IMG/VR virus record: IMGVR_UViG_3300020171_001274
Location: 1-26,094 of that record
Length of the DNA: 26,094 nucleotides
Reading direction: 5' to 3' (one strand)
From: a virus
Under the pieces are notes generated by a model. The model was not told the origin of the DNA and did no database searches. It saw only the letters and a list, made by a program, of their open reading frames with translations. The translations under genes and the position numbers were made by a program. Every line of letters starts with the position of its first letter. Within the stretch, counting starts at the first letter, position 1. This document shows positions 2,148-25,909 of this stretch, piece by piece.

Positions 2148-2161
2148 AAAGAACTTCTAAT

Positions 2162-3723: not shown

Positions 3724-4417
3724 AAAAAAGTGTTTTTAAAATAACATTTGTATCCCATTTATTAAAATGATCTCTTTCCCAATTTTCTGATTTTTTAAAA
3801 TATTCTGGAAATCCTATTTTTCTTATATCATGATCTATAAATAATTTCATTCCGTGTTTTAATGCCTTATATGCTAATATCCAACAATCACCACTATACC
3901 ACTTATCCATATCTTCTTCAAATTTTATTTCTTTTAATCTTTTAGAAGGAAACATTGCAAAATTAATTTCGTATCCATTCCAATTTATTTCTTCAAGTCC
4001 ACTTTTAAGATCTTCTTTTAAATCGAAAGGTTTTAAACAACCTTCTCGATATTCTTTAAATGTAGGTCTCTTACCGCTTGTTCCTCCTGTACAAACTGCT
4101 GCATCTTCTTTATAAATCCTATACCAATTCCACATTCTTTTAAATGAATCATCTGGAATCCAAATATAATCTTGTAAAAATACTGTTAACTTTCCAGATA
4201 CCATATCAATTGCTTCATTGTATGCAGAATTTAGATTCCATACACATCCTTCTCTTGGTGGTTTTGGTTTAAAGCATTTATATCCCATTATCTTTCTATC
4301 AAGTTCATCGCCAATAATAACTTCAAAATCTTGAAAAGTTTGTCGTTTAAGATTGTCTTTTAATATATCAATTCCATATTTATTTTTAGTTAGATATATT
4401 ACACTTATTTTCGACAT
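3698..4417 (-). CDS. Glycosyltransferase, GT2/GT-A type
   Basis: A 239-residue protein starting with a GT-A-type strand (I-S-V-I-Y-L-T-K-N) and R-Q-T-F-Q-D-F-E-V-I-I-G-D, the usual GT2 N-terminal pattern. L-T-V-F-L-Q-D-Y near residue 80 stands where the DXD motif is expected, but the aspartate pair is degenerate (Q-D-Y), so the metal site may be altered. W-Y-S-G-D-C-W lies near residue 170. It overlaps the aminotransferase gene by 13 bases and the methyltransferase gene by 26 bases. Probably part of one sugar-modification operon. Confidence 0.7.
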   Translation of the reverse strand: MSKISVIYLTKNKYGIDILKDNLKRQTFQDFEVIIGDELDRKIMGYKCFKPKPPREGCVWNLNSAYNEAIDMVSGKLTVFLQDYIWIPDDSFKRMWNWYRIYKEDAAVCTGGTSGKRPTFKEYREGCLKPFDLKEDLKSGLEEINWNGYEINFAMFPSKRLKEIKFEEDMDKWYSGDCWILAYKALKHGMKLFIDHDIRKIGFPEYFKKSENWERDHFNKWDTNVILKTLFYEKKLYQE

Positions 4418-5508: not shown

Positions 5509-5509
5509 A

Positions 5510-6274
5510 TTATTTACGTCTGCAGATAAACGTTTGACCACCTTGATTATTCACTTCATCTCTAAAACTAGAACAATAATTTCGAATTAAGTTAATGAAC
5601 ATATCACTTGGATATCTATAAACGCCGAAAATATCTGAAAATTCATGAGACAATTGTCCTTTTAATTTAATATGAATTTCTTTTCCTGGATCTACTTGTT
5701 TAAAGATATTTGCTAATTTTTCTTCCCAACTATCTTTTGGTTCATTAAATTCAATTGCTAATTCATTTTTAAACATTACTTTTAATTGATCATTATTTGG
5801 AAATTCTGATGTTTCAGAAACTAAATCTACTTGTTCTTGGATAGGTTCAGCTTGTCTTTCTATAGCACCTTCCTTTACTTTAACAACTTCTGGGTCGTTC
5901 ATTACTTCTTTTAATGTTTCTTCAAGTTGTTCTTCGGTCGGTGTATCATCTTCTGGAATTGATCCGTCTAGTACTGTAGCAGTAATATCTTCTGAAATAG
6001 TTTCTTGCTCTTCTTGTTTTTCATCAATCGCATCTAATTTTTCTTGTACTAGTTGTACTTGTTCTTTTGTTACTTCAGCTTCTAGTGGTTTTTCAACAAA
6101 ATCAGAACCTTCTTCTATAGCTTCTTGTATTGGAATACTATTTTTTGCTATTGTATTTTTTTCTTCATCTGAAAGTTTTTCACCTCTTTCTAAAGCTTCT
6201 TTTTTAGCTTTACAAAATCTTTGATGAACTGCTACATTTTTATATTCACCTCCACAAAATTCACATATCGACAT
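5510..6274 (-). CDS. N-terminal zinc finger plus acidic linker protein
   Basis: A 254-residue protein of unknown function. Residues 4-21 form a compact C-x2-C-x9-H-x3-C zinc-finger pattern, like short phage zinc fingers that read host or phage proteins or DNA. Residues 35-165 are very rich in Glu with Val/Ile/Gln spacing, probably a flexible or coiled-coil linker. The last 85 residues look like a separate small folded domain (it includes L-K-G-Q-L-S-H-E-F-S-D-I-F-G and ends near C-R-R-K). No SD is seen. It is the first gene of the four-gene run 6274-3073, which continues with the aminotransferase. Not recognised. Confidence 0.6.
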   Translation of the reverse strand: MSICEFCGGEYKNVAVHQRFCKAKKEALERGEKLSDEEKNTIAKNSIPIQEAIEEGSDFVEKPLEAEVTKEQVQLVQEKLDAIDEKQEEQETISEDITATVLDGSIPEDDTPTEEQLEETLKEVMNDPEVVKVKEGAIERQAEPIQEQVDLVSETSEFPNNDQLKVMFKNELAIEFNEPKDSWEEKLANIFKQVDPGKEIHIKLKGQLSHEFSDIFGVYRYPSDMFINLIRNYCSSFRDEVNNQGGQTFICRRK

Positions 6275-10646: not shown

Positions 10647-10659
10647 AATGAACTCCTTT

Positions 10660-11010
10660 TTAATTTATTATGTTTTCTAATTTTCTAGTTAAACTTTCTT
10701 CTACTGTTCGCATTTCATCTCTTGTAGTAAATCTACTCCAACCTAATTCTGATAATTCTCCAAGTAAAATATGTATTATTTCATGTTTAGCAGTTGCTTT
10801 TATATCGACATTTATATCATCTGCTAAGTCACTATTTAAAGTTACACTAGCACTTTTAGCAGTCAGTGTAGTATTTACTTTTGCAATACAATTATTTGGT
10901 TCGTGTTTATTGTGAAAATAATCAATTTGCCAATCGTCTAATTTAAATCTATTAACCCAGTATTCACATTCTTTAACAAATAACTCAAAATCCTTTTTTG
11001 TTGTTTTCAT
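10660..11010 (-). CDS. HExxH putative metallopeptidase
   Basis: A 116-residue protein with A-K-H-E-I-I-H (74-80), an HExxH zinc-protease motif, followed 24 residues later by a conserved-looking E-E pair (104-105) that could supply the third ligand. The N-terminal half (D-D-W-Q-I-D-Y and a beta hairpin) resembles the small HExxH proteins common in phage structural neighbourhoods. A G-rich stretch (AAAAAGGG) precedes the ATG. It lies between the large glycosyltransferase and the capsid module. It could be a head-maturation or host-directed protease; neither is shown. Confidence 0.6.
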   Translation of the reverse strand: MKTTKKDFELFVKECEYWVNRFKLDDWQIDYFHNKHEPNNCIAKVNTTLTAKSASVTLNSDLADDINVDIKATAKHEIIHILLGELSELGWSRFTTRDEMRTVEESLTRKLENIIN

Positions 11011-12650: not shown

Positions 12651-13535
12651 TTAGAAAAGATCTTGTTGGTTTTCTAAACCTATTTTTAGTTTTTCTTCAA
12701 CCAATTTTTGTTTGATTTCGTCAACATCTCTTTTTTTACCGCCGCCTTCGGCGAGTTTTAGTTGTCTAACTAAATCATTAATCTTTTCACTTTTATTAAG
12801 AGTTAATCGTGCTTTACTTTGAACTCCTAAGTCTTTTTCTTTATCTTTAACGTCTTTTAGTGATTTACTATCTTCAATCAGTGATTCAAGTTCAGATCCT
12901 ACAAAAACTTCGCTTAACTCTTTATTTTCCTTAGCAGCAACTGCTCTAATTATATTAAGATAAGGTTCTGCATCAGGATAACTTTTTAAGAATTTAGCAT
13001 CCGAAAGTTCTTGTTTGATTTTACTGACTTCATCGTCAATAGAAGAAGTTTGTTTCTTAATTTCTTCCACTACATCAACATCGCCTTTTTCTTTCTTATC
13101 TGTTTTTTTATCCTTAGAAGAAAGTAATTCCTCGACTTCTTTAGCATCTTCAAGCATTTGATCATGAGCTTTAGCTTTTTCGCGTAATTCCTTGATTTCA
13201 TCACTAGGAACGCCTACTGCTGTAGCTAAATTTTTATAATGCTTGACAAAGTCCTCTTTATCTTTAAATGATCTACCAGATAAAGTATTGAGTTCTTCGA
13301 CGGTAAAATTAGACGCTAAATCATCGACTTCTTTCTTTTCTTCTTCTTTCTTTTCTTCCTTTACTTCTTTTTCTTCTTCTTTCAACTTGTCAATAGCTTC
13401 TTGGATCTCTTCCTCAACTGCTTGCTCCTCTTTTGTTTTAGGAGTAGTATCCACATTAGACGCAACATCTTTCCCTTCTTCAGAACTAACGTTCTGTTCT
13501 GAAGGGTCGGTTGAAGGTTTGTTTTCTTTGTCCAT
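12651..13535 (-). CDS. Scaffold (capsid assembly) protein
   Basis: A 294-residue, strongly charged protein rich in Glu and Lys with long predicted coiled-coil stretches (E-E-E-K-E-V-K-E-E-K-K near residue 55, further heptad-like runs at 100-190). Low hydrophobicity, no cysteine and a position just before the major capsid gene are typical of phage scaffolding proteins, which assemble inside the procapsid and leave before packaging. No protease motif was seen in it. The call rests on composition and position rather than on a sequence signature. Confidence 0.8.
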   Translation of the reverse strand: MDKENKPSTDPSEQNVSSEEGKDVASNVDTTPKTKEEQAVEEEIQEAIDKLKEEEKEVKEEKKEEEKKEVDDLASNFTVEELNTLSGRSFKDKEDFVKHYKNLATAVGVPSDEIKELREKAKAHDQMLEDAKEVEELLSSKDKKTDKKEKGDVDVVEEIKKQTSSIDDEVSKIKQELSDAKFLKSYPDAEPYLNIIRAVAAKENKELSEVFVGSELESLIEDSKSLKDVKDKEKDLGVQSKARLTLNKSEKINDLVRQLKLAEGGGKKRDVDEIKQKLVEEKLKIGLENQQDLF

Positions 13536-13610
13536 AATTTTATTATGTTCTAAAATACTTAGTTAATCATCTCCATATTCGACCTTTAAATTTAACATGA
13601 AGGTTTGATA

Positions 13611-13910
13611 TTATTTAAATCTTTTGATGATATCGTTCGTTTTTTCAATATTATTATCTATAAAGTCACTATAACTGGCAACCCCTAATATATCATCCAA
13701 CCATTGTTCAATAATTTCTATAGCCATTTTTTTAGCTAATTGCTCTATTGCAATACTATTATAATTTTTTTTATAATTTATATCTCTAACAGTATCTAAT
13801 TCTTTAATACGTAGAGCTAAACAACAAAGTAAATCTTTAAAATCATCTGATTTTATTAATTCTTTAACTCTTGCTGATTGTTCTACTTTTTTTGTTTCTT
13901 CTTGTTCCAT
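13611..13910 (-). CDS. Hypothetical protein between portal and scaffold
   Basis: A 99-residue helical protein with no recognised motif, containing paired cysteines (D-L-L-C-C-L-A-L) near residue 28. Its start lies two bases after the stop of the gene before it. Position between portal and scaffold suggests a minor head protein. It starts within AATTATG, without SD. Confidence 0.5.
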   Translation of the reverse strand: MEQEETKKVEQSARVKELIKSDDFKDLLCCLALRIKELDTVRDINYKKNYNSIAIEQLAKKMAIEIIEQWLDDILGVASYSDFIDNNIEKTNDIIKRFK

Positions 13911-13912
13911 AA

Positions 13913-14167
13913 TTATTCTTTTTTATCGGCATTATTTTTAACAGGCTTTACTTTAATAACTTTGAAACCAACATCTGAGCCATCTTCATCTTCTTGTATA
14001 GATGACATTCTTACACCAATTAATAATAAATAATTTTTACCCACTTCCCAACTTTTAGCTTCAGGTAAATCCTTAAGCTTCAAATGAAGATTTGGATAAT
14101 ATGGTTTAGATCTTGCTGTATCTAATCCAGATTTTTCTGGTGTAATTTTTTTCATTTTTTCTGCCAT
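13913..14167 (-). CDS. Hypothetical protein after portal
   Basis: An 84-residue protein with a basic N-terminus, a central strand-like segment (Y-L-L-L-I-G-V-R-M) and V-G-F-K-V-I-K-V-K-P-V-K near the end, which may form a small beta structure. A possible SD (AAGGGG) lies about 10 bases before the ATG. The position just downstream of the portal gene suggests a head-related role. Not recognised. Confidence 0.5.
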   Translation of the reverse strand: MAEKMKKITPEKSGLDTARSKPYYPNLHLKLKDLPEAKSWEVGKNYLLLIGVRMSSIQEDEDGSDVGFKVIKVKPVKNNADKKE

Positions 14168-14191
14168 AATTTTTTATCCCCTTATTATTAA

Positions 14192-16057
14192 TTATAATGT
14201 CGGTGCTAATGCTGCTCCTCTTCCTTCAGCAGTACCAAATTGTGCCATTTGTTCAGTTGCTGAGGTCGGTCCAGTTGGAATACGTCCTGGAGCACCTTTA
14301 GCCATAGCAGCAGCAGCTTGTTGTTGTGCTAATTCAGCTACTTGTTCAGGGCTTCGTAAAAATCTTTCAGAACTTAATCCCATTAAGTCAATAATTTCAG
14401 CTGTAATTTTATCAGTATCAATATTTATACCTGCAATATTACCATAGCTAACTAACAAATCATTAAGTTGTTTTGCTAATATTACTTTATTAAATGATTC
14501 AGATGTAACAAATATTTCTATAGAATCTAATAAATTTTCAGGACTAAATATCTTTTTCTTAACTTCTAGCCATCTATCTCTACCTTGTTTTCGATAAACA
14601 TTACCTTGTTTTTCTTTAAATTGATCTATTTCTTGACTAGTTGGATAATAACCATTTTTACTATGGAATTTAGCAACTTCATCAGCTACCATACTATCTA
14701 TAACAGCATTATCAATAATTCTTAATTCTTTTGGATCTCCTGTAATTCTTATAATTTCTTTATCTTTCAAAGTATCAAATAAAGCCGGTACAATTAATTC
14801 TTCCATAAACTGACTTATAGCAAATCCTAATTCTTCTTGTTGAAGAGAAAAACCACTCTTCATTCCTTTTTCTTGTAATACAGCTGTAGTAGCTGGCATT
14901 GAAGCGGGTAATGATTCTCCTCTTCCTATTTCCCAAGCTCCTGTCATTCTTTGAGCCCATATATAAGCTTGATCTTCATCTTTATATGAAGAAGGCTTCA
15001 TATCTGATGTTCTTAATTCTCTAATATCTTGATCAATACGAGAAACTTGAATACCATGACTTCCATGTAACTGACTTAACATCTGAGGAGTAATACCAGA
15101 ACCTTTTCTAATTTGGAATAAACCTAATTGTTTAATTCGGTTTGTATTTAATCTTATATTAAATACTTCGTTAATGTAAGATTGAATATCAAATAAATCT
15201 TCACCTATTCCTAATCCTACCCAACGACCATCATACATTTTAGTTCTAAATTCTTGATATGGTCTTTTACCACTTTCATTTTTAGCAATTAATTGAATAA
15301 ATGGTCCTCCATTGATATTTGAAACAATAATTACACCTTCTATAAGCTGACTATCTTTTCTATCTTTTGTTAAATAATATTCAGGCATTAATCCCCATCT
15401 TTCAGTAACCATAACATAAGGGATAGAAGTTGAAATTGGTAAATCAGGAATTCTTTCAATTGATGTTTCTCCGATTAATTTATCTAAATTATTCCATTCT
15501 TTATACGACTTAGCTTCATCTAGGGTTAAATAGTTATCTTCAATATTACCCGAAGATTCGGTTAAATAATTAACTGTTGGATCTGTATAAAAATTTAAAT
15601 TTTCAAGTAATTTAATTCCTACCTTACCATTTATTTTAGTCTTTTTAACTACAGCAACTCCTTCAACTCCAGCTTTTCTTATAATTCTATTTAAAATTTG
15701 ACCAAATCGCATTTTATCTAAAAATGCTCCTAAAATATAACGAGTTAATATAGCTAAATTATAACCTCCAGGTGTTTTAGCTCTTACTTGAATATCTTTT
15801 GTATCAAGATCAATATTCTTAACAGTAGTTTCAACCATATCTCTCGTTAAAGGAATAAATAACTTTTTACGATTAGTTACTGGATCATATTGATTATCAT
15901 AGATACTAAAATAATTCTTTCTAGCTCTTTTTATTATATTGCGACATTGAAAAGAAATCTTATCTGTAAGATAAACTTCCATTTCTGCCCATTCATTTCT
16001 TTCTCTTCGAACGAGCTCTATAGCTTCTTGATCAATTGTTATTTGTTCTATTTCCAT
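14192..16057 (-). CDS. Portal protein
   Basis: A 621-residue protein from the ATG at 16057, which has GAAGGGGAAG just upstream; an in-frame GTG at 16075 is less likely. Size and layout fit the large portals that accompany DUF5309-type capsids: an N-terminal helical clip region with K-K-L-F-I-P-L-T-R near residue 65, a long central stem/wing with a D-D-L/D-I-Q-S-Y-I-N-E-V-F-N segment near 325, and a disordered Ala/Gln/Gly/Thr-rich C-terminus. Portals form the 12-subunit ring at the head vertex through which DNA is packaged. Placed one base after the preceding gene and in the expected order after the terminase. Confidence 0.85.
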   Translation of the reverse strand: MEIEQITIDQEAIELVRRERNEWAEMEVYLTDKISFQCRNIIKRARKNYFSIYDNQYDPVTNRKKLFIPLTRDMVETTVKNIDLDTKDIQVRAKTPGGYNLAILTRYILGAFLDKMRFGQILNRIIRKAGVEGVAVVKKTKINGKVGIKLLENLNFYTDPTVNYLTESSGNIEDNYLTLDEAKSYKEWNNLDKLIGETSIERIPDLPISTSIPYVMVTERWGLMPEYYLTKDRKDSQLIEGVIIVSNINGGPFIQLIAKNESGKRPYQEFRTKMYDGRWVGLGIGEDLFDIQSYINEVFNIRLNTNRIKQLGLFQIRKGSGITPQMLSQLHGSHGIQVSRIDQDIRELRTSDMKPSSYKDEDQAYIWAQRMTGAWEIGRGESLPASMPATTAVLQEKGMKSGFSLQQEELGFAISQFMEELIVPALFDTLKDKEIIRITGDPKELRIIDNAVIDSMVADEVAKFHSKNGYYPTSQEIDQFKEKQGNVYRKQGRDRWLEVKKKIFSPENLLDSIEIFVTSESFNKVILAKQLNDLLVSYGNIAGINIDTDKITAEIIDLMGLSSERFLRSPEQVAELAQQQAAAAMAKGAPGRIPTGPTSATEQMAQFGTAEGRGAALAPTL

Positions 16058-19048: not shown

Positions 19049-20326
19049 TTACCAATCTGTACCCCTTCGTTGAAAAATTGTTGGCTTTACATTACCAGGC
19101 ATTTCATTTGGTAAGTCCCATATAGCTAATGCTAATGACATTACACAGTCATCATGAAATCCTGATGGAGCGCTATATGTTATATTTCCTTTATCTGTTT
19201 TTGTATAAGCGTATGTTTCTAATTCATTAATTAAAACAGGAATATCTGGAAATGTTAATTTCTTCTGTTGTATAAAAATAACTAATTTATCAACTAAATG
19301 TCTTTTAGATTTATTTGTAAACTTATAGTCTTCAGCTGACAAATTCATATCAATCAAATCTTCAAAGATCGGATCCCCAACACCAGTTGAGTCAATAAAC
19401 ACTAAAGCGTCATTATAGTCTTCAGCTATAGCTTTAATACGTTTTTTTTGTAATCCCCAAGGAATTATTTTAAAACGATCTAATTTAACTAAGTGATGGT
19501 TTGCTCTATCAATTACACAAATGACTGTATAATCTTTATAACGACCTAAGTCAACGCCTATTGCGTACAAATGGTTCTTAATAGGTTTTTGTAATTCCCC
19601 CCAAATGCATTGTGCAATATCGCGGAAAACAGTAGTCGTTCCATCTTCGAAACTAGCTTCATACTCAGTCATGAAAATGGTATTAGCTAAAGATTCTTTA
19701 GCTTCTGCTATATCTTCAGCTAAATTGGGAATTGTTGGGTTATCTATCGTTTTAAACTGAAACGATATATAATTTTTATTTTTCTCATCATCAATTTGCC
19801 CACGACACCATAATCTATGAAACCAGTTTTTTCCAACTGGTGTTGAAATAAATATGGCTCTCCCATTACGATCAGTTAAACATGGTCGTAAGAATGATTG
19901 CCATATCTTCTCTTGAACCCGAGCGGCCTCATCTATTATTAAAAGATCTAAGCTTTCACCAATCAAGCTATCAGGGTTTTCAGCTGATTTACACATTACA
20001 AATGATCCTGTAGCTAAGCATCTAATTGTTAATTGTGAATAATTTACCTTAAATACTCCATCTGGAAAGCGGTTTATCACCCAAAATACTAAATAATCGA
20101 ATACTTTCTTCGATAACTCATAGTTAGGAGATACGATCCATATCTTCGTTTGAGCTCCAAACATCTCTCTAATCGCCGTATATGCGCATAATATAGTCTT
20201 TCCGAATCGTCTACCGGCACAGATTACTGTAAATCTACGTTGTTTTTTAAGAACTTCTTCTTGACCGGGATGTGGAGTAAACCCGATAAACTCCTTCAAT
20301 TGGTCAACATTTAACTGATATCTCAT
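19049..20326 (-). CDS. terL: Terminase large subunit
   Basis: A 425-residue packaging motor and nuclease. Walker A variant A-G-R-R-F-G-K-T lies at 37-44 and Walker B L-L-I-I-D-E-A at 128-134, followed by the coupling motif I-S-T-P (160-163). The C-terminal RNase H-like nuclease shows G-V-D-L-G (257-261), F-I-D-S-T-G (310-315) and H-D-D (391-393) as acidic metal ligands. Size matches Terminase_6-type large subunits. It starts the head module together with a small upstream gene, and its stop is next to the transglycosylase start. It starts within AATTATG, without SD. Confidence 0.95.
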   Translation of the reverse strand: MRYQLNVDQLKEFIGFTPHPGQEEVLKKQRRFTVICAGRRFGKTILCAYTAIREMFGAQTKIWIVSPNYELSKKVFDYLVFWVINRFPDGVFKVNYSQLTIRCLATGSFVMCKSAENPDSLIGESLDLLIIDEAARVQEKIWQSFLRPCLTDRNGRAIFISTPVGKNWFHRLWCRGQIDDEKNKNYISFQFKTIDNPTIPNLAEDIAEAKESLANTIFMTEYEASFEDGTTTVFRDIAQCIWGELQKPIKNHLYAIGVDLGRYKDYTVICVIDRANHHLVKLDRFKIIPWGLQKKRIKAIAEDYNDALVFIDSTGVGDPIFEDLIDMNLSAEDYKFTNKSKRHLVDKLVIFIQQKKLTFPDIPVLINELETYAYTKTDKGNITYSAPSGFHDDCVMSLALAIWDLPNEMPGNVKPTIFQRRGTDW

Positions 20327-20723: not shown

Positions 20724-20781
20724 CGGGTCCCAACTGGATTTTTATAAAAATTTGTGGGAGGGGGATAATAGTAATAACGTA

Positions 20782-20803
20782 GGGGCAGGGGAGGGGTGGG
20801 GGG
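20782..20803 (+). other. Strong G-quadruplex motif
   Basis: Four runs of at least four G separated by 1-2 bases (GGGG-CA-GGGG-A-GGGG-T-GGGGGG), preceded nearby by GGGAGGGGG (about 20756-20764). It lies in the divergent control region between the late (minus) and early (plus) promoters of a genome that is otherwise AT-rich. Such short loops favour a very stable quadruplex in DNA or plus-strand RNA. Confidence 0.75.
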
Positions 20804-20855
20804 TGTCGTAGTATCTACATCTTGCGTTTCTTATTATTTCGCCTTATAATTTCCG

Positions 20856-20884
20856 TTGATTTTATTTTATTTTCTTATTATAAT
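20856..20884 (+). promoter_or_regulatory. Early promoter P0
   Basis: TTGATT (20856-20861), 17-base spacer, TATAAT (20879-20884). Lacks the AGTTATSC upstream box of the other early promoters. A GAGGGGGGTG stretch follows at 20895-20904 with no gene after it, so the transcript would run as a leader towards 21189. Confidence 0.6.
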
Positions 20885-20918
20885 ATATCTATGTGAGGGG
20901 GGTGCTTTTTTTAATAAT

Positions 20919-21062: not shown

Positions 21063-21110
21063 AGTTATGCGCAACCTTCCTATTGATTTAATTTGGGACT
21101 AATTTATAAT
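21063..21110 (+). promoter_or_regulatory. Early promoter of unit A with AGTTATGC box
   Basis: AGTTATGC (21063-21070), 12 bases, TTGATT (21083-21088), 16 bases, TATAAT (21105-21110). The box and its spacing recur at four other promoters on this strand, which points to a shared activator or repressor site just upstream of -35. Confidence 0.8.
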
Positions 21111-21143: not shown

Positions 21144-21164
21144 ATAATTATAATAAAGAAAGTA

Positions 21165-21181
21165 GGATAGGTCTTTCAAAA
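21165..21181 (+). promoter_or_regulatory. Leader element A: core GGATAGG + boxA-like
   Basis: Core GGATAGG (21165-21171) directly followed by TCTTTCAAAA, 7 bases before the ATG. There is no SD at normal distance. The core is exactly complementary (7 bp) to CCTATCC in the loop of the hairpin that ends the same unit (21465-21471). Confidence 0.8.
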
Positions 21182-21188
21182 TAAAATA

Positions 21189-21443
21189 ATGACTAATAAT
21201 AAAAAAGTTTTTAATGCAAATCTTTCTGTCAAAGATTCTAAGTTAACTCCAAAAAGTTTTAACGATATCTTAGACATTGGGATTCGTCAGTTAAAGTTTC
21301 GCAACGGAATGACAATGAAAAGATTGTTATTCTGGACGATAGATATTCTTGATGAATTGGAAGAAAATAAGCAGATTGATGAAAAGAAAATGAAAGAATT
21401 CTATCAGACGAAAAAGACAGTTGAAGAATTATTAAGTAAATAA
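21189..21443 (+). CDS. Early hypothetical protein, unit A
   Basis: An 84-residue, Lys-rich helical protein of unknown function (R-Q-L-K-F-R-N-G-M-T-M-K near residues 33-44; the C-terminal half is charged coiled-coil-like). Sole gene of its unit: own promoter, leader hairpin, leader element and U-tailed hairpin. As the first plus-strand gene after the control region it should be among the earliest expressed. SD-less start. Confidence 0.75.
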   Translation: MTNNKKVFNANLSVKDSKLTPKSFNDILDIGIRQLKFRNGMTMKRLLFWTIDILDELEENKQIDEKKMKEFYQTKKTVEELLSK

Positions 21444-21451
21444 TTCTATAG

Positions 21452-21490
21452 AATACTTCTTATTCCTATCCGATAAGAAGTATTTTTTTT
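21452..21490 (+). terminator. Terminator A with loop complementary to leader A
   Basis: A perfect 12-bp stem, AATACTTCTTAT (21452-21463) with ATAAGAAGTATT (21473-21484), loop TCCTATCCG (21464-21472), then a run of eight T. This is a classical Rho-independent terminator. Loop bases 21465-21471 pair with the core GGATAGG of the unit's own leader. Confidence 0.9.
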
Positions 21491-21553
21491 CTACGCAACT
21501 CTCATTTAATTCGGCTAAATCAATGATTCAAATTATTGGGTCACTTCATTGAA

Positions 21554-21601
21554 AGTTATGCTCTATACTCTATTGACTTGTATTTTGGACCATATTATAA
21601 T
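21554..21601 (+). promoter_or_regulatory. Early promoter of unit B with AGTTATGC box
   Basis: AGTTATGC (21554-21561), 11 bases, TTGACT (21573-21578), 17 bases, TATAAT (21596-21601). The rest of the 268-base gap 21444-21711 holds terminator A, this promoter and the unit B leader; no gene is seen. Confidence 0.8.
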
Positions 21602-21621
21602 AAGTATATGAGTCAATATAA

Positions 21622-21653
21622 TATGTATATCTTAATCAAATCGCATATACATA
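21622..21653 (+). other. Leader hairpin, unit B
   Basis: TATGTATAT (21622-21630) pairs exactly with ATATACATA (21645-21653) across a 14-base loop, a short distance after the expected transcription start. It parallels the leader hairpins of units A and D. Confidence 0.5.
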
Positions 21654-21687
21654 GCATTTTACGCGAATTAAGCGCTAATCAAACGAA

Positions 21688-21706
21688 GGGTGAGTTCGTT
21701 TATAAT
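21688..21706 (+). promoter_or_regulatory. Leader element B: core GGGTGAG + boxA-like
   Basis: Core GGGTGAG (21688-21694) followed by TTCGTTTATAAT (21695-21706), 5 bases before the ATG. The core pairs with the 7-base loop CTCACTC of hairpin B: six Watson-Crick pairs and one G-U. Confidence 0.75.
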
Positions 21707-21711
21707 ATAAT

Positions 21712-21918
21712 ATGTCTAAAATATCTATTAAGTATCTTGTTTCTATTAAAATAACTAAGATATCAGCAACCATCCCAGAAGATATCCGTGAAGAAGAAGT
21801 GTTATTAGATGATTATTTATCTAATACAATCTGTGAAAAGGAAGTTTATAATAAAGTAATGTTCTTAGCAGATACCAAACAAGACGCCGAAGAATTGGCC
21901 TGTCAATTAGAAGAGTAA
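21712..21918 (+). CDS. Early hypothetical protein, unit B
   Basis: A 68-residue acidic protein (I-P-E-D-I-R-E-E-E near residue 22) of unknown function, the only gene of its unit. The base context around its terminator is nearly the same as around terminator A (TCTATAGAATACT before, T-run then C-n-ACGCAACT after), so units A and B appear to be duplicated frames around different genes. Confidence 0.65.
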   Translation: MSKISIKYLVSIKITKISATIPEDIREEEVLLDDYLSNTICEKEVYNKVMFLADTKQDAEELACQLEE

Positions 21919-21931
21919 TTCAAATCTATAG

Positions 21932-21970
21932 AATACTCCATATTCTCACTCAATGTGGAGTATTTTTTTT
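21932..21970 (+). terminator. Terminator B with loop complementary to leader B
   Basis: A 13-bp stem with one G-U pair, AATACTCCATATT (21932-21944) with AATGTGGAGTATT (21952-21964). The loop CTCACTC (21945-21951) consists of exactly the seven bases that pair with GGGTGAG of the unit's leader. A run of eight T ends at 21970. Confidence 0.9.
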
Positions 21971-22033
21971 CCACGCAACTTAGATTTCTGCTGACGAACC
22001 CAAGGTTTGAAATTACAACGGCAGGGCACGCAA

Positions 22034-22132
22034 CATTCCAAATCTATTCCAAATGCCTCCCCGAAGCAATTTCGCACCAGTTGATACTAATAATGAAGAT
22101 TCTGCTTCGGCCATTCCAAATCTATTCCAAAT
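22034..22132 (+). repeat. Iteron-like repeats flanking an inverted repeat
   Basis: A 21-base sequence occurs exactly twice (22034-22054 and 22112-22132). Each copy is itself a doubled ATTCCAAAT in an 11-base rhythm, so there are four copies in all. Between them CCGAAGCA (22061-22068) and TGCTTCGG (22103-22110) form an 8-bp inverted repeat. It sits in a 605-base stretch without a convincing gene (21919-22523). Such an arrangement is typical of replication origins or multi-site operators. Confidence 0.6.
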
Positions 22133-22195
22133 ACATAGAGATTTTAGACGAATTTGTAGGATTTTAAGGTTCTTGTGTGTGAAATTGACATTTCC

Positions 22196-22238
22196 TCCCG
22201 ACTAAATAGATAGATTTCCCGACTAAATAGATAGATTT
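22196..22238 (+). repeat. Tandem 21-base repeat, two copies
   Basis: Two consecutive copies of a 21-base unit (starting 22196 and 22217) built on TCCCGACTAAATAGATAGAT. GATA/TAGA words continue to about 22303. A TTGACA at 22185-22190 precedes it but has only a poor -10. Possible operator or origin component. Confidence 0.6.
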
Positions 22239-22421
22239 TTTGAATCAAACAAAGGAAGAGAGACAAATTTAGTAATGAAATGAATAGAAATAGAATAGAT
22301 AGGTGTATATTTGATATTATATGTATTGATATGGTGGTATTAACTTTAATGACCTGTCTAAAGGAATAGTTTTTCCCCCGCGCTAAATTCTAAGGATTCG
22401 CAACTAAGTTACTTATACAAT

Positions 22422-22468
22422 AGTTATCCGCATTGGCCTCTTGATTTATATTTGAGATAAAATATAAT
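22422..22468 (+). promoter_or_regulatory. Early promoter of unit C with AGTTATCC box
   Basis: AGTTATCC (22422-22429), 11 bases, TTGATT (22441-22446), 16 bases, TATAAT (22463-22468). Confidence 0.8.
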
Positions 22469-22476
22469 AATAGTAA

Positions 22477-22511
22477 TGTTCTTTCAAACGAACTAATTGT
22501 ATAGGGATAGG
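22477..22511 (+). promoter_or_regulatory. Leader element C: displaced boxA-like, core GGATAGG
   Basis: Core GGATAGG (22505-22511) lies 12 bases before the ATG at 22524. Unlike the other units, the boxA-like sequence (GTTCTTTCAAACGAAC, 22479-22494) lies upstream of the core, and it is inside a possible six-codon leader ORF (22477-22497). The core is complementary (7 bp) to the loop of hairpin C. Confidence 0.65.
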
Positions 22512-22523
22512 TATACTTATATT

Positions 22524-22805
22524 ATGAATTACTTAATTAAAAGACCTATGTTACATTCAAACTTTGAATTGCCTACGCGCGAAGAACTACTTGACTTGAA
22601 ACCTCGTAACTTTGTTAAACTAATCTTTACTGATAAGAAAGGTAATAATGGAGAACGAATGTGGGTTAAACTAACAAAGATTGACCTAAAAGAAGGTAGT
22701 CGCTATCAAGGGATATTAGACAATAATCCACTTGTATTAAGAATCAAGTTAGGAACAAAGATAACTTTTCATCCACTTGATATTATTGATTTCTTAACTA
22801 AGTAA
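22524..22805 (+). CDS. DUF2314-like protein, unit C
   Basis: A 93-residue protein from the ATG at 22524; an in-frame TTG at 22497 would cross the leader core and is rejected. The pattern F-V-K-L-I-F near residue 29, G-E-R-M-W-V-K-L (43-50), Y-Q-G-I-L-D-N-N-P (61-69) and G-T-K-I-T-F-H-P near 78-85 resembles DUF2314-type small domains, whose function is unknown. Single gene of unit C. Confidence 0.65.
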   Translation: MNYLIKRPMLHSNFELPTREELLDLKPRNFVKLIFTDKKGNNGERMWVKLTKIDLKEGSRYQGILDNNPLVLRIKLGTKITFHPLDIIDFLTK

Positions 22806-22858
22806 CTATTCTTTAGTTCATTATTATCCTATCCTAATAGTGAACTAAGATAATAGTT
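22804..22858 (+). terminator. Long hairpin C with loop complementary to leader C
   Basis: Inner stem 22812-22826 with 22835-22849 (15 bp including G-U pairs) and outer stem AACTATT (22804-22810) with AATAGTT (22852-22858), separated by a small internal loop. The apical loop TCCTATCC (22827-22834) contains CCTATCC, complementary to core GGATAGG of the unit. Only TTTC follows, so termination may be incomplete. Confidence 0.85.
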
Positions 22859-22869
22859 TCTTGCGCAAT

Positions 22870-22916
22870 AGTTATCCTGTGTGGCCCCTTGATTTCATTT
22901 CTTAGTATAATATAAT
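22870..22916 (+). promoter_or_regulatory. Early promoter of unit D with AGTTATCC box
   Basis: AGTTATCC (22870-22877), 11 bases, TTGATT (22889-22894), 16 bases, TATAAT (22911-22916). It starts 12 bases after hairpin C. Confidence 0.8.
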
Positions 22917-22931
22917 AATAATAAGTTCTTA

Positions 22932-23017
22932 TTATATTATGTTATGAGTTCTCAATCTTTAATAATAATGTCTACTTATATAGAGACAACCAATTGAGGA
23001 CTCATTAGATAATATAA
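22932..23017 (+). other. Long leader hairpin, unit D
   Basis: TTATATTAT (22932-22940) pairs with ATAATATAA (23009-23017), and 22944-22956 pairs with 22993-23005 (13 bp, one G-U). Together they form a stem of more than 20 bp right after the promoter, closing a 36-base loop. It is the largest leader structure in the early region and probably stabilises or regulates the mRNA. Confidence 0.7.
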
Positions 23018-23032
23018 TTAACACAGCGAATA

Positions 23033-23051
23033 GGACAGGTTCGTTAACAAT
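23033..23051 (+). promoter_or_regulatory. Leader element D: core GGACAGG + boxA-like
   Basis: Core GGACAGG (23033-23039) followed by TTCGTTAACAAT (23040-23051), two bases before the ATG. The core pairs with TCTGTCC in the loop of hairpin D (six Watson-Crick, one G-U). The boxA-like part matches the E. coli rrn boxA (TGCTCTTTAACAAT) except for small changes. Confidence 0.8.
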
Positions 23052-23053
23052 TT

Positions 23054-23257
23054 ATGATTGAAACTGATTTAACTAACAAGTCAAACGCGTATCTTAGTAA
23101 ATATCGTATAGCAGATTGGAGAGATATTCCTGGGTTACTTGAAGAAATTGATTCCGAATTAAAACAATTTAATTTAGAATTAGATTTAGGTAACTGCGCT
23201 GACGATAACTATTGGATTCGTATTGTTAAAAGGAAAGGAGGTGGTAAAAATGTTTGA
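23054..23257 (+). CDS. Early hypothetical protein, unit D gene 1
   Basis: A 67-residue protein with D-W-R-D-I-P-G-L near residue 21 and a basic tail; function unknown. It has no SD: the ATG directly follows the leader element. Its last codons contain the GGAGGTGG SD of the next gene, which overlaps it by 8 bases. Confidence 0.65.
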   Translation: MIETDLTNKSNAYLSKYRIADWRDIPGLLEEIDSELKQFNLELDLGNCADDNYWIRIVKRKGGGKNV

Positions 23258-23468
23258 TAGTTACGTTTTCGTTTTAGAGTTTATGGAGTTAGATGAGGAT
23301 TTAATTGAGGAGAAAATAGATAGAGCGATACAGTATGACTATGATAATGGAAATCTTTCGCCAGAAGATGAAGAAGGAGGAAAGACGCTTCAGGAATGGC
23401 AAGATGACGAAGATGAAAGGAAGAGATGTTATAACTACATTGCTTCTTACTTCCCAATTTATTTTTAA
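23250..23468 (+). CDS. Early acidic hypothetical protein, unit D gene 2
   Basis: A 72-residue, very acidic protein (E-E, D-D-E-D-E near residue 51). The ATG at 23250 has a strong SD (AAAGGAGGTGG); a TTG 9 codons earlier in frame is not needed. Acidic small proteins of early phage regions often act as DNA mimics or bind host enzymes, but nothing specific is visible here. Confidence 0.65.
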   Translation: MFDSYVFVLEFMELDEDLIEEKIDRAIQYDYDNGNLSPEDEEGGKTLQEWQDDEDERKRCYNYIASYFPIYF

Positions 23469-23479
23469 TTTTTCATAGA

Positions 23480-23512
23480 GTTTATTATTATATCTGTCCA
23501 ATAATAATAAAC
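23480..23512 (+). terminator. Hairpin D with loop complementary to leader D
   Basis: A perfect 12-bp stem, GTTTATTATTAT (23480-23491) with ATAATAATAAAC (23501-23512), and loop ATCTGTCCA (23492-23500). TCTGTCC (23493-23499) pairs with core GGACAGG of the unit. No U-tract follows and no promoter lies before unit E, so read-through to E is expected. Confidence 0.8.
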
Positions 23513-23545
23513 TTCATTGAGGAACTAAGTATTAACATAGCGAAA

Positions 23546-23563
23546 GGTTGGTTCGTTAACAAT
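23546..23563 (+). promoter_or_regulatory. Leader element E: core GGTTGG + boxA-like
   Basis: GGTTGG (23546-23551) followed by TTCGTTAACAAT (23552-23563), three bases before the ATG. It shares long flanks with leader D (ATTAACAyAGCGAA before, the same boxA-like part after), while the core differs. GGTTGGT is exactly complementary to ACCAACC in hairpin E. Confidence 0.85.
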
Positions 23564-23566
23564 ATA

Positions 23567-23782
23567 ATGATTAAAAAGATGAATAAAGTAACAATGCAAA
23601 TGATAATAAAGCAATCACAACTGGGCGAAAAGTTTATTAGCAAACTTGGTGAATTAGTCAAAGAAACTATAGAGGACGGAGTTCAAATGAAATTATCAGA
23701 ACAGCAAACAAAAGATGTAATCAAAACTACATTTGTTATTTTAAGTAGAAAATCAACGGAAGGAGGTGAGTTTAATGACTAA
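23567..23782 (+). CDS. Early hypothetical protein, unit E gene 1
   Basis: A 71-residue helical protein (M-Q-M-I-I-K-Q-S-Q-L-G-E near residue 10) of unknown function. SD-less start after the leader element; the SD of the next gene (GGAGGTG) lies in its last codons and the two overlap by 8 bases. Confidence 0.65.
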   Translation: MIKKMNKVTMQMIIKQSQLGEKFISKLGELVKETIEDGVQMKLSEQQTKDVIKTTFVILSRKSTEGGEFND

Positions 23783-23918
23783 ACAACAATGCGAGCAACT
23801 CCAGGATAGTATAATAACTTACTGTGATGGACTTCCTGAGGAACTTATAGATAACTTATGTGATGCAGTTGTCTCATACTATAACGCTCACAAAACAGAA
23901 GGAGGTGAAACGAAATGA
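23775..23918 (+). CDS. Early hypothetical protein, unit E gene 2
   Basis: A 47-residue acidic protein with three cysteines (6, 17, 29). Strong SD (AAGGAGGTGAG) 5 bases before the ATG; its stop overlaps the next start by 4 bases (ATGA), and its last codons carry the next SD. Unknown function. Confidence 0.65.
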   Translation: MTKQQCEQLQDSIITYCDGLPEELIDNLCDAVVSYYNAHKTEGGETK

Positions 23919-24067
23919 AAATAGATAGAATGAATTATAATGTAGCCATTGATAGAGGATTTATTATATGGGAAGGCAATGATGAAGGTATATGGTATGC
24001 AAGAAGTCAAGACAGGAATGACGAAGATTACGGAAAAGTATATCAAATCATAGGATACATTGATTAA
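23915..24067 (+). CDS. Early hypothetical protein, unit E gene 3
   Basis: A 50-residue protein rich in Tyr, Asp and Ile with two Trp residues, probably a small beta fold (I-I-W-E-G-N-D-E-G-I-W-Y-A-R). SD GAAGGAGGTGAAA. Last gene before hairpin E. Unknown function. Confidence 0.6.
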   Translation: MKIDRMNYNVAIDRGFIIWEGNDEGIWYARSQDRNDEDYGKVYQIIGYID

Positions 24068-24075
24068 CATATCTA

Positions 24076-24116
24076 AGGGTTTACTACAGATTACCAACCG
24101 ATTTGTAGTAAATCTT
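24076..24116 (+). terminator. Hairpin E with loop complementary to leader E
   Basis: The stem is 24076-24091 with 24101-24116 (16 bp including three G-U pairs; the centre TTTACTACA/TGTAGTAAA is exact). The loop TACCAACCG (24092-24100) contains ACCAACC, which pairs with GGTTGGT of leader E about 540 bases upstream, with three genes in between. Only a weak T-rich tail follows. Confidence 0.85.
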
Positions 24117-24138
24117 ATTGATACGTGAATCTATAATT

Positions 24139-24186
24139 AGTTATGCAGAGTGTGCCCTTGATTTTGGATTTTGAATATAATATAAT
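24139..24186 (+). promoter_or_regulatory. Early promoter of unit X with AGTTATGC box
   Basis: AGTTATGC (24139-24146), 11 bases, TTGATT (24158-24163), 17 bases, TATAAT (24181-24186; an alternative -10 lies at 24176-24181). The leader is very short, 24 bases from the -10 box to the ATG, and has a normal SD and no core. Confidence 0.8.
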
Positions 24187-24210
24187 GGAATAGAAGGGAG
24201 GTGAATAATA

Positions 24211-24390
24211 ATGAAAAAAGAATTAAAAAATCAAATTGACGAAGAATTAGATGACATTGTTCGTGAAATTAGGATAGTTGTTACTGACTATGTTGCTAAC
24301 AACTTAGACGCTTTTGACGTTGTTAAAGATTTTGACGAACAAAGCGAAGCAATGGACTATATTGTTCAAGAACTTAGGAAATGTTTGTAA
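24211..24390 (+). CDS. Early acidic hypothetical protein, unit X gene 1
   Basis: A 59-residue, Glu/Asp-rich helical protein (E-E-L-D-D-I-V-R-E-I near residue 11). Strong SD GGGAGGTG. It is the only first gene of a promoter-driven early unit with an SD instead of a boxA-like leader. Unknown function. Confidence 0.65.
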   Translation: MKKELKNQIDEELDDIVREIRIVVTDYVANNLDAFDVVKDFDEQSEAMDYIVQELRKCL

Positions 24391-24409
24391 AGAAAGGAGG
24401 TGATAATAG

Positions 24410-24616
24410 ATGACTGAAGTTAAAATAACTGAGGATAAGTTTGAACAATATCAATCAGTTCGCAATAGCGGAATGACAAATATGTTTGATGTCAAACAAG
24501 TTATTAACTTATCTGATGACTTAACTCGTGAAGAAGTTCTTAATATAATGAGTAACTATGCAACTTACGAAAAACAATATCAGAAAGGAGGTGAATCAAA
24601 TGAAGATAATAGTTAA
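24410..24616 (+). CDS. DUF5049-like protein, unit X gene 2
   Basis: A 68-residue protein. The segment V-R-N-S-G-M-T-N-M-F-D-V (17-28) followed by V-I-N-L is like the V-R-x-S-G-x-T-N-M-F-D signature of DUF5049-type phage proteins; the role is unknown. Strong SD (AAAGGAGGTGA). Its end overlaps the next gene by 17 bases. Confidence 0.65.
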   Translation: MTEVKITEDKFEQYQSVRNSGMTNMFDVKQVINLSDDLTREEVLNIMSNYATYEKQYQKGGESNEDNS

Positions 24617-24809
24617 CAAACCATTCGGTAGACAATCTGTCTTAATGAGTAAGAATTTAGTTAAAGTAACTGCTTTTTTACTTGAGCATAAGATTAAAAA
24701 ATGGATATTTGATACGACAATAGATATTTTCAAAACCGGCAGCCCGCAAGTAATCATTCGCCATACTTATAAAAAGGAAGGCGACCATATATCTTATCCT
24801 ATCAGGTAG
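24600..24809 (+). CDS. Early hypothetical protein, unit X gene 3
   Basis: A 69-residue basic protein starting at the ATG at 24600, chosen for its SD (AAAGGAGGTGAA); an in-frame start at 24558 would give 14 more residues but has no SD. Contains W-I-F-D-T-T-I-D-I-F near residue 36 and ends G-D-H-I-S-Y-P-I-R. Unknown function. Confidence 0.65.
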   Translation: MKIIVNKPFGRQSVLMSKNLVKVTAFLLEHKIKKWIFDTTIDIFKTGSPQVIIRHTYKKEGDHISYPIR

Positions 24810-24821
24810 TTTACTTCTTAA

Positions 24822-24845
24822 CTCTGCTCATTTATGTGAGTAGAG
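24822..24845 (+). terminator. Hairpin X without core-complementary loop
   Basis: CTCTGCTCA (24822-24830) with TGAGTAGAG (24837-24845), 9 bp with one G-U, loop TTTATG. No U-tract. The loop has no match to any leader core, consistent with unit X having no core. Confidence 0.6.
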
Positions 24846-24868
24846 ATTAGGAAATAATTAAAGGAGAA

Positions 24869-24886
24869 GGTCGGCTCTTTCAAAAC
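24869..24886 (+). promoter_or_regulatory. Leader element F: core GGTCGG + boxA-like
   Basis: GGTCGG (24869-24874) followed by CTCTTTCAAAAC (24875-24886), two bases before the ATG. Exactly complementary (6 bp) to CCGACC in hairpin F. No promoter in the 24 bases between hairpin X and this element. Confidence 0.8.
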
Positions 24887-24888
24887 CT

Positions 24889-25185
24889 ATGACAAGATTA
24901 GGAACTTATACAACTTTTGATTGCCCAACTAAACAAATAGATGAAACTTTAGATTGGCTACAAGAAGAGTTTGCGAAGATAGGAGGATATGTTCGTAAAG
25001 TATCTAATCCTCACGATTTCGGTTCGTATCCGTCTTTTGAAGTTGATTATCCATTAGATATTGAAGGAATTGATATGGATGACGATGAGACGCCTGATGA
25101 AGATTATACTAAGAAAGATGAATGGCATCAGAAAGCGGATAAGATATACGATGGATACTTCAAACTTTTTGAAAAATATCTTTAA
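24889..25185 (+). CDS. Early acidic hypothetical protein, unit F
   Basis: A 98-residue, strongly acidic protein (M-D-D-D-E-T-P-D-E-D near residue 68), probably a compact alpha/beta fold with an N-terminal T-R-L-G-T-Y-T-T-F. Single gene of unit F, SD-less. The acid-rich character recalls DNA-mimic or inhibitor proteins, but no family is recognised. Confidence 0.65.
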   Translation: MTRLGTYTTFDCPTKQIDETLDWLQEEFAKIGGYVRKVSNPHDFGSYPSFEVDYPLDIEGIDMDDDETPDEDYTKKDEWHQKADKIYDGYFKLFEKYL

Positions 25186-25195
25186 CTTATTATAC

Positions 25196-25230
25196 CTTGC
25201 TTATTAGCTACCGACCAGTTAGTAAGTAAG
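25196..25230 (+). terminator. Hairpin F with loop complementary to leader F
   Basis: 25196-25208 pairs with 25218-25230 (13 bp including three G-U). The loop TACCGACCA (25209-25217) contains CCGACC, complementary to GGTCGG. CGACCAG (25212-25218), which takes in the closing base of the stem, is also fully complementary to the core of the next leader. No U-tract. Confidence 0.8.
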
Positions 25231-25249
25231 AATAAGAAGTGAAGGACTT

Positions 25250-25268
25250 CTGGTCGTTCTTTCAAAAA
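25250..25268 (+). promoter_or_regulatory. Leader element G: core CTGGTCG + boxA-like
   Basis: CTGGTCG (25250-25256) followed by TTCTTTCAAAAA (25257-25268), one base before the ATG. It pairs with TGACCAG of hairpin G (six Watson-Crick, one G-U) and also with CGACCAG at hairpin F (seven Watson-Crick), 32 bases upstream. Confidence 0.75.
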
Positions 25269-25269
25269 T

Positions 25270-25821
25270 ATGACTAACACAATAAGTAAAATGAAGAAAC
25301 AAGAACTCATAGAAGCTATCCTTGAAGAATCTCAAATTCACCATAATATAAGGATTAGTTTCAGCCGAATAAACGAAACTGATGAAATTGACAATGAACT
25401 ACTTGACCAAATAATTTGGTCAACCTCTGAAATGTTAGCCGATGATTTCAAAATGAATTGGGAATCTGAACATTCTGAATTAGGGAAAGTATATTCTTGC
25501 GGTCGTAGCGGGGCAACTCTTTATTGGGATGAATACTGGGATGAATCTAAATTTAAGTATCCTGATTATTATTTAGAGGAAGATGATTGGGATAAGGAAT
25601 CATTACAGGAAATGTTAAAGAATATCCGTGAGTTCAATGAAGCAGTTAAAAATCTTATGGAAGATTTTTACTTGAATGTTAACGATAGAATAGATGAAGA
25701 AATTATAAACAAGAAGAATAATGATAAAGAAGATGAACTCTATAGCAAAACTCTAAAGATAATCAGAAAACACGATTTTACTAAACGTCTATTCCACGAT
25801 TTAATCTATAAAAAATTATAG
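25270..25821 (+). CDS. Early hypothetical protein, unit G
   Basis: A 183-residue acidic protein, the largest of the early region. An internal segment S-C-G-R-S-G-A-T-L-Y-W-D (near residues 77-88) looks like a conserved core seen in phage hypothetical proteins; long charged helices follow to the C-terminus. Single gene of unit G, SD-less, read from an upstream promoter. Function unknown. Confidence 0.7.
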   Translation: MTNTISKMKKQELIEAILEESQIHHNIRISFSRINETDEIDNELLDQIIWSTSEMLADDFKMNWESEHSELGKVYSCGRSGATLYWDEYWDESKFKYPDYYLEEDDWDKESLQEMLKNIREFNEAVKNLMEDFYLNVNDRIDEEIINKKNNDKEDELYSKTLKIIRKHDFTKRLFHDLIYKKL

Positions 25822-25833
25822 TTAAGTTGCTGA

Positions 25834-25867
25834 TTTTGCCTATTATTGACCAGAATAGTAGGCAAAA
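25834..25867 (+). terminator. Hairpin G with loop complementary to leader G
   Basis: TTTTGCCTATTA (25834-25845) pairs with TAGTAGGCAAAA (25856-25867), 12 bp with one G-U, extendable by two A-T pairs. The loop TTGACCAGAA contains TGACCAG (25847-25853), which pairs with CTGGTCG of leader G. No U-tract; leader H follows 23 bases on. Confidence 0.85.
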
Positions 25868-25890
25868 ATGAGAAACTTAATCAAGAGTTG

Positions 25891-25909
25891 TCGTTGGCTC
25901 TTTAACAAT
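25891..25909 (+). promoter_or_regulatory. Leader element H: core TCGTTGG + boxA
   Basis: TCGTTGG (25891-25897) followed by CTCTTTAACAAT (25898-25909), one base before the ATG. GCTCTTTAACAAT is identical to the core of the E. coli rrn boxA. The partner hairpin lies outside the window. Confidence 0.75.

Follow-up and report, generated by a model that had tools for sequence, protein, structure and literature searches.

The window analysed here is a stretch of 26,094 nucleotides (nt; positions 1 to 26,094 of virus record IMGVR_UViG_3300020171_001274) and derives from an uncultured phage, of which it is a 26 kb fragment. Its minus strand carries the late genes, with a relative of the large terminase TerL at 19049-20326 and other late genes at lower coordinates, and an early region of small genes, divergent from the late genes, begins at about 21.1 kb. 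An earlier note on this DNA had described seven consecutive early units, A to G, in each of which a 7-nt core in the 5' leader was complementary to the loop of the hairpin closing the same unit (hereafter the trailer). All seven core/loop pairs were present, and the number of genes between core and loop was one to three as described (1, 1, 1, 2, 3, 1, and 1 in units A to G). All hairpins of the early region were recomputed blind to any pairing, and every named core (7 of 7) lay within the loop of a small hairpin in the leader. The sequence of the cores was thus given correctly in the earlier note, their description as bare 7-mers was not, and because each core belongs to the loop of a hairpin of its own, the contact with the trailer would be a loop-loop (kissing) contact.

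In units A to G, 7-11 nt separated the 3' end of the leader hairpin from the first start codon, and an A/U-rich linker, e.g. UUAACAAUUAUAUG or CUUUCAAAAUAUAUG, followed the hairpin. The partner loops were found in hairpins of 12-14 bp (7 bp for unit F by strict scan) at a distance of 6-14 nt from the last stop codon of the unit. Counted within the loops only, the duplexes measured 7, 7, 7, 7, 6, 6, and 6 bp for A to G; the complementarity reported for E and G stood, but the seventh pair counted there used a base of the closing stem, which leaves 6 bp within the loops.

All units are on the plus strand, and the z-scores given for trailers compare their stability with that of shuffled sequences. 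The leader hairpin of unit A (GAAAG taggataggt CTTTC, 21158-21177, core GGATAGG) precedes by 11 nt the ATG at 21189 of a gene for 84 amino acids (aa; 21189-21443), and the trailer hairpin at 21450-21486 (14 bp, loop TCCTATCCG, z -4.8) pairs with it over 7 bp and is followed by a T-tract. Unit B comprises a leader hairpin (AAACGAA gggtgag TTCGTTT, 21681-21701) 10 nt before the ATG at 21712, a 68-aa gene (21712-21918), and a trailer hairpin (21932-21964, loop CTCACTC, z -6.0) that is likewise followed by a T-tract and pairs over 7 bp with one G-U. The leader of unit C (GTATA gggatagg TATAC, 22499-22516) ends 7 nt before the ATG at 22524, and the 93-aa gene (22524-22805), which has a weak DUF2314-like match below the cut-off, leads into a trailer at 22804-22858 whose outer helix starts within the stop codon and whose inner helix (22813-22848, loop TCCTATCC, z -6.8) pairs with the leader over 7 bp. 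Unit D has its leader (AGCGAA taggacagg TTCGTT, 23025-23045) 8 nt before the ATG at 23054, two genes of 67 and 72 aa (23054-23468), the second of them starting at 23250 with a strong Shine-Dalgarno (SD) sequence, and a trailer at 23469-23524 with an outer helix (UUUUUCA/UGAGGAA) and an inner helix (23479-23513, loop ATCTGTCCA, z -3.7) that pairs over 7 bp with one G-U. The leader of unit E (TAGCGAA aggttgg TTCGTTA, 23538-23558), which has no promoter of its own, stands 8 nt before the ATG at 23567; its three genes (71, 47, and 50 aa, 23567-24067; the second and third with strong SD sequences) are followed by a trailer with an inner helix at 24080-24112 (loop TACCAACCG, 6 bp with leader E, z -5.5) surrounded by outer pairs. 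Unit F consists of a leader (AAGGAG aaggtcgg CTCTTT, 24861-24880) 8 nt before the ATG at 24889, a 98-aa gene (24889-25185), and an inner trailer helix (25200-25226, loop GCTACCGACCAGT, 6 bp with leader F, z -5.1). In unit G the leader (AAGGAC ttctggtc GTTCTT, 25242-25261) is 8 nt before the ATG at 25270 of a 183-aa gene (25270-25821), and the trailer (25822-25880) has an outer helix (UUAAGUU/AACUUAA) and an inner helix (25834-25867, loop GACCAG, 6 bp with leader G, z -6.3). An eighth leader, H (AAGAG ttgtcgttgg CTCTT, 25883-25902, 8 nt before the ATG at 25911), would have its partner past the end of the window.

The trailers were much more stable than their shuffled counterparts (z -3.7 to -6.8). 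Many of them possess the second, outer helix that starts at or near the stop codon, and this outer helix covaries; a conserved CUGA + UGAG module, also seen in unit G, is located between the outer and inner helices in many units. A kink-turn reading of the module was judged by eye and rejected, as the length of the bulge was unfit. The spacing of leader to start codon and the outer helix at or near the stop codon indicate that the structure is positioned relative to start and stop codons and not relative to transcript ends.

Matching within the window was assessed by scoring every leader against every loop, a comparison that the earlier note had proposed and that came out in its favour, own pairs being far better in the window and in a second phage described below. 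For units A to G the own pairs had a mean of -9.9 kcal/mol versus -4.0 kcal/mol off the diagonal, and 2 of the 5040 exact permutations were as good as the own pairing; these are the identity and the A/C swap, which are nearly equal because A and C share a core. Off-diagonal matches were seen as well (A with C, and the leaders of E and G with the loop of F). The pairs of the window are therefore matched, yet not perfectly orthogonal.

An independent replicate was obtained with a search pattern that contained the leader stem and linker only (GCGAA..TTCGTTAACAA) and returned 81 contigs. Among these, G001 (IMGVR_UViG_3300035698_009625, 46.5 kb) encodes a TerL 47% identical to that of the window and has an array, divergent from TerL and organised like that of the window, of ten tandem units with ten matched pairs, the units being separated by short spacers. 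The pairs of units 1 to 5 are TCGTTGG/CCAACGA, TTCCGG/CCGGAA, ACGCTGG/CCAGCGT, TATCCTGG/CCAGGATG, and CTCCG/CGGAG, and those of units 6 to 10 are TTCGGCG/CGCCGAA, GACTAG/CTAGTC, CTACTGGCC/GGCCAGTAG, TGCTCGG/CCGAGCA, and CCGGCTG/TAGCCGG. Relaxed criteria were applied to unit 5, which has a duplex of 5 bp, and to unit 8, whose leader has a 4-bp stem and was identified only once its trailer had been seen. The own trailer was the best partner for all ten G001 leaders, and none of 200,000 random permutations was as good as the own assignment (z -7.3). No core was common to G001 and the window. In a comparison of 30 sequences, the first gene of window unit E was weakly similar to the gene of G001 unit 7 (E about 3e-4), and the gene of window unit G, in its C-terminal part, to that of G001 unit 8 (E about 7e-4). 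These apparently homologous genes carry different cores, which suggests compensatory change, insofar as the weak similarities reflect homology.

A second leader pattern (AAGAG..CTCTTT) led to three further phages. G002 (IMGVR_UViG_3300031952_000027), with a very distant TerL, has three units of the same anatomy next to TerL, with the pairs TTCGCCAG/CTGGCGAG, TGCTGG/CCAGCA, and TTAGCC/GGCTAA. One probable unit each, chosen by complementarity and with a T-tract at the trailer, was found in G003 (IMGVR_UViG_3300013138_000614, GCGGGG/CCCCGC) and G004 (IMGVR_UViG_3300035183_000528, CCGTCTG/CAGACGG). In G001 to G004, as in the window, the units are divergent from the terminase gene, which in G004 we take, by eye and without a family match, to be the gene at L591:10001-11482. 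Gene content differs widely between the unit-bearing phages, and the kissing helices across all of them are 5-9 bp long, mostly 6-7 bp.

For the analysis of covariation, 22 units from the five phages were aligned in a hand-made register comprising five leader, six kissing, and six trailer pairs. Standard pairs occupied 99.1% of the leader cells, 99.2% of the kissing cells, and 100% of the trailer cells, the core register having been picked for complementarity, which favours the pairing percentage and is controlled for by a neighbour test. When the structures were slid by 1-3 columns, only 33-46% of the cells paired over all three helices. In the neighbour test, 101 of 102 cells were canonical with the own trailer, versus 42 of 90 with the previous and 44 of 90 with the next trailer, so that leaders pair with the trailers of neighbouring units at chance. 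Changes on both sides were found for all 17 pairs, including all six kissing positions, and the covariation score was 1.23 versus 0.27 in shuffles. The cores were distinct in 20 of 21 units, or 21 of 22 when the third G002 unit was counted. With both-sided changes at every kissing position and ten private pairs in G001, the covarying contact between leader and 3' hairpin that the earlier note had proposed is supported by the computational tests put forward there, and on this evidence the predicted kissing contact is, in evolutionary terms, close to certain to be real. On the coding strand, 25 G-U cells were counted in stems and core versus one A-C cell, which indicates that the selected molecule is the mRNA.

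The distribution of the system was surveyed with a unit scanner that asked only for a hairpin before the start of an open reading frame, a hairpin after a stop, and complementary loops. It recovered all seven units of the window (17 redundant hits) and no units on either strand of 80 terminase-related loci (954 kb). A looser version, run over 9.26 Mb of two-strand sequence, returned scattered chance singletons and no locus with more than two units apart from the window and G001; only L427 had two, with leader stems of 4-5 bp. The contigs of the nearest terminase relatives (L002-L005, 81-88%) stop short of the early region, and units are absent from the terminase relatives G006-G009; terminase kinship is therefore no predictor of the system. 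Early proteins used as queries retrieved either no relatives or G001 itself alone. Among cultured phages, neither the early region nor those unit genes and adjoining stretches that were tried had a match. A related terminase was absent from 380 genomes from the phylum of a Roizmanbacteria metagenome-assembled genome, an empty result obtained without a positive control. Look-alike leaders in L580, L582, L585, and L587 were rejected, as they had no matching trailer. Rfam searches at the gathering threshold gave no match in the early region of the window and only tRNAs in L164 (G001:31001-46494).

Signals for translation and transcription were compared with the positions of the units. The first genes of units have no strong SD match (means of -3.7 and -2.6 kcal/mol versus -12 kcal/mol for the internal genes of the window), and near-perfect SD sequences (about -12 kcal/mol) occur at 23250, 23775, 23915, 24211, 24410, and 24600, that is, at genes inside units and in an operon between units E and F that served as a control. 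There are thus two start modes in one genome. The SD-less initiation noted earlier at unit starts is present but is not special to units, as the late genes are mostly SD-less as well. The control operon (24211-24845, plus strand) has an SD-type start without a leader hairpin and three genes extending to 24809, and no leader is complementary to its 3' hairpin (24822-24845, loop TTTATG). Promoter-like sites on the plus strand were located at 21083-21110 (A), 21573-21601 (B), 22441-22468 (C), 22889-22916 (D), and 24158-24186 (control operon); these are consensus matches only, of which 41 were found versus 30 expected. No consensus promoter was found directly before the leaders of E, F, G, or H. 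A T-tract after the trailer, as in the hairpin and U-tract of Rho-independent terminators, was found only for A, B, and the G003 and G004 units; there was none for C to G, the G001 trailers, or G002. Units E to H and most G001 units are inside tandem arrays with neither a clear promoter of their own nor a T-tract. Because E to H have no promoter of their own and T-tracts follow only A and B, the contact bounds translation units and not whole mRNAs; of the earlier proposal that it joins the 5' leader to the 3' end of an mRNA, the contact was retained and the whole-mRNA bounds were not.

From these observations we infer that the two loops meet in cells and that their contact affects translation of the unit; the tight spacing to start and stop codons and the location of E to H inside longer transcripts tie it to translation units. 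That its main role is in translation is, in our judgement, an even call. Within such a role, a positive sign, i.e. re-initiation, is possible, and a repressive sign is unlikely. The mechanism we favour is a closed loop through which termination is coupled to renewed initiation at the first AUG of the unit. The weak leader hairpin (-2.9 to -5.2 kcal/mol in 8 of 9 folded) and the long trailer hairpin would recognise each other by a loop-loop helix, and in cis this would close the translation unit so that the stop codon meets the start codon. In the 30S initiation complex the SD duplex occupies the platform, and the leader hairpin would be positioned where an SD helix would sit; docking of the trailer would stabilise the leader hairpin, which is weak by itself. 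Terminating ribosomes would open the outer trailer helix, which overlaps or adjoins the stop codon, and protection of the ends would be a by-product of the closed loop. In its full form, in which some uncultured DNA phages would have a bacterial analogue of the closed-loop mRNA of eukaryotes, with a tether for each early unit that returns terminating ribosomes or 30S subunits to their own start codon and so, by recycling, outcompetes host messages, the proposal is put forward tentatively and with low confidence.

Several observations weigh against this interpretation. The stability of the leader hairpins hardly exceeded that of shuffled sequences (z -1.6 to +0.5, most near zero), and three of the hairpins adopted a different minimum free energy fold in isolation (shifted pairing in C, other pairing in F, and a hairpin with a 3-nt loop in G). 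More than one unit was found in three phages only (the window, G001, and G002), and the single-unit phages G003 and G004 could include a chance hit. The idea that the leader substitutes for a missing SD sequence is weakened by the SD-less late genes. No avoidance of cross-talk between cores was detected relative to shuffled cores, and the earlier idea of a private address for each mRNA, in the sense of a mutually exclusive set, found no support; nearness in cis may suffice without exclusive cores. Finally, the sign of the effect on translation is not readable from sequence.

Protection from decay, in which the kissing contact shields the unit from ribonucleases (entry at the 5' end, endonucleolytic cuts near the start, and 3' exonucleases), is the rival that survives best, and it is doubtful as the main role. 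In one variant, tandem units may be cut apart and persist as separate closed mRNAs, for which the short spacers between them could be processing sites. The contact between 5' and 3' untranslated regions (UTRs) that guards the hbs mRNA against RNase Y is a precedent (PMC7821165), and the trailers are strong 3' hairpins; a strong 3' hairpin, however, shields without a private partner, a unit inside a polycistron acquires free ends only by cleavage, and the tight spacing of 7-11 nt between leader and start codon argues for the ribosome.

Negative feedback would have the transcribed trailer dock and stabilise the leader at the ribosome-binding region, stopping initiation until terminating ribosomes reopen it, so that early protein would come only from the first rounds of translation. 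Repression by pairing of a 3' UTR with the 5' UTR is known for icaR, where it blocks initiation (PMC3868564), and a leader hairpin that is weak alone would be stabilised by the contact. This explanation is nonetheless unlikely: the start codon and the A/U-rich linker are outside the hairpin, no SD sequence is sequestered, and some ten consecutive self-repressing early genes would be an odd design.

Action in trans, with trailers or their fragments serving as small RNAs on the leaders of other copies, or with like mRNAs dimerising or clustering, is quite improbable. Private pairs would supply each mRNA with its own regulator, and antisense RNAs, RNAI/RNAII of ColE1 among them, typically use loop-loop recognition, but the partners are always in one unit, cross-pairing is not minimised (A and C share a core), and the trailers of C to G do not have the terminator T-tracts needed for discrete small RNAs. 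An element acting at the DNA level, such as a hairpin promoter, a recombination site, or a cruciform, would account for hairpins at unit borders, and hairpin promoters exist in N4-type phages; the excess of G-U over A-C cells on the coding strand contradicts it, placement tracks start and stop codons, and a DNA hairpin read by a protein would keep its loop, which here is variable, so that we consider it very improbable. That the units are mobile cassettes, modular as they are and set in phages of widely varying gene content, whose loop complementarity is inherited or fortuitous and whose contact has no function is scarcely credible, as 21 cores in 22 units with 99.2% complementarity require selection on pairing, and inheritance alone would preserve one core and is contradicted by the both-sided changes at every position.

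The closest known systems resemble this one in part. Full-loop kissing helices of 6-7 bp between two hairpins characterise RNAI/RNAII of ColE1 and other antisense systems, where they form in trans between RNAs from opposite strands; here both loops are on one strand, hundreds of bases apart. The 3' cap-independent translation enhancers (3'CITEs) of eukaryotic positive-strand RNA viruses are single contacts in which the 3' element recruits initiation factors. As in the 3'CITEs of plant viruses, a 3' hairpin loop is here complementary to the loop of a 5' leader hairpin on one RNA, but the contacts are many and private, one per translation unit, on mRNAs of DNA phages in a bacterial setting; the records are of DNA phages with a large terminase, and the early region contains no known RNA family. 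In plant RNA viruses, 5'-3' kissing loops serve translation (PMC5712577). In Staphylococcus aureus, a UCCCCUG motif in the 3' UTR of icaR pairs with the SD region of its own 5' UTR and represses it (PMC3868564). Repression of the icaR type lowers translation and generates a substrate for RNase III. Like icaR, the units are part of a bacterial-type mRNA in which a 3' region pairs with its own 5' region; unlike that single gene, they form arrays with loop-loop contacts and covarying cores, and an SD-complementary 3' motif of the icaR type is absent, the first genes of units having no strong SD sequence and the cores varying freely. The hbs mRNA of Bacillus subtilis, a single gene, is guarded from RNase Y by a 14-nt contact between its 5' and 3' UTRs (PMC7821165). 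Intramolecular 5'-3' UTR pairing is supported here by covariation, and the hbs contact is described neither as one between two hairpin loops nor as part of an array. No array of covarying, unit-specific start-stop kissing pairs was found for bacteria or phages in the open-access literature, in agreement with the earlier note, whose author knew of no such system. The system fits no known family, and the principle of long-range 5'-3' pairing, which is all that it has in common with icaR, hbs, and the 3'CITEs, is already known; if that principle is taken as the kind, the system would be a variant of it.

Other features were recorded in the same sequences. Within G001, L164 contains a small operon (8740-10842) with a ThiF/E1-like gene (10162-10842, Pfam ThiF 3e-19), a JAB-like gene just under the Pfam cut-off (9623-10198), and a 76-aa gene that resembles a ubiquitin-like carrier by eye, without a Pfam match (8740-8970), which together are possibly a phage-borne ubiquitin-like conjugation set; six tRNA genes are clustered at 13093-14893. 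G-rich tracts (ggggaggggtggggggtg, ggggggtgc) occur in the window at 20740-20900, in noncoding DNA between TerL and the early region, and C-rich stretches were seen upstream of TerL in L004 and L005; they are perhaps a conserved noncoding element, e.g. a G-quadruplex or an origin. Units B and C are separated by a long gap, in which short direct repeats form two sets (CATTCCAAATCTATTCCAAATR; TTTCCCGACTAAATAGATAGATTT) at 22030-22240. Glycosyltransferase-like genes and a DegT-type aminotransferase are present among the late genes (281-5541, minus strand), which suggests sugar or glycan modification.

A linear molecule is the usual picture of a bacterial mRNA, to which icaR and hbs are isolated exceptions. 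If the closed-loop reading is true, distantly related phages would have a bacterial-type translation system tuned by closed-loop mRNAs, and short reporter constructs could test directly whether ribosomes are recycled in cis or the units of a polycistron are controlled one by one. The arrays would also offer matched kissing loops as a natural library, together with a signature by which further phages of this type could be found.

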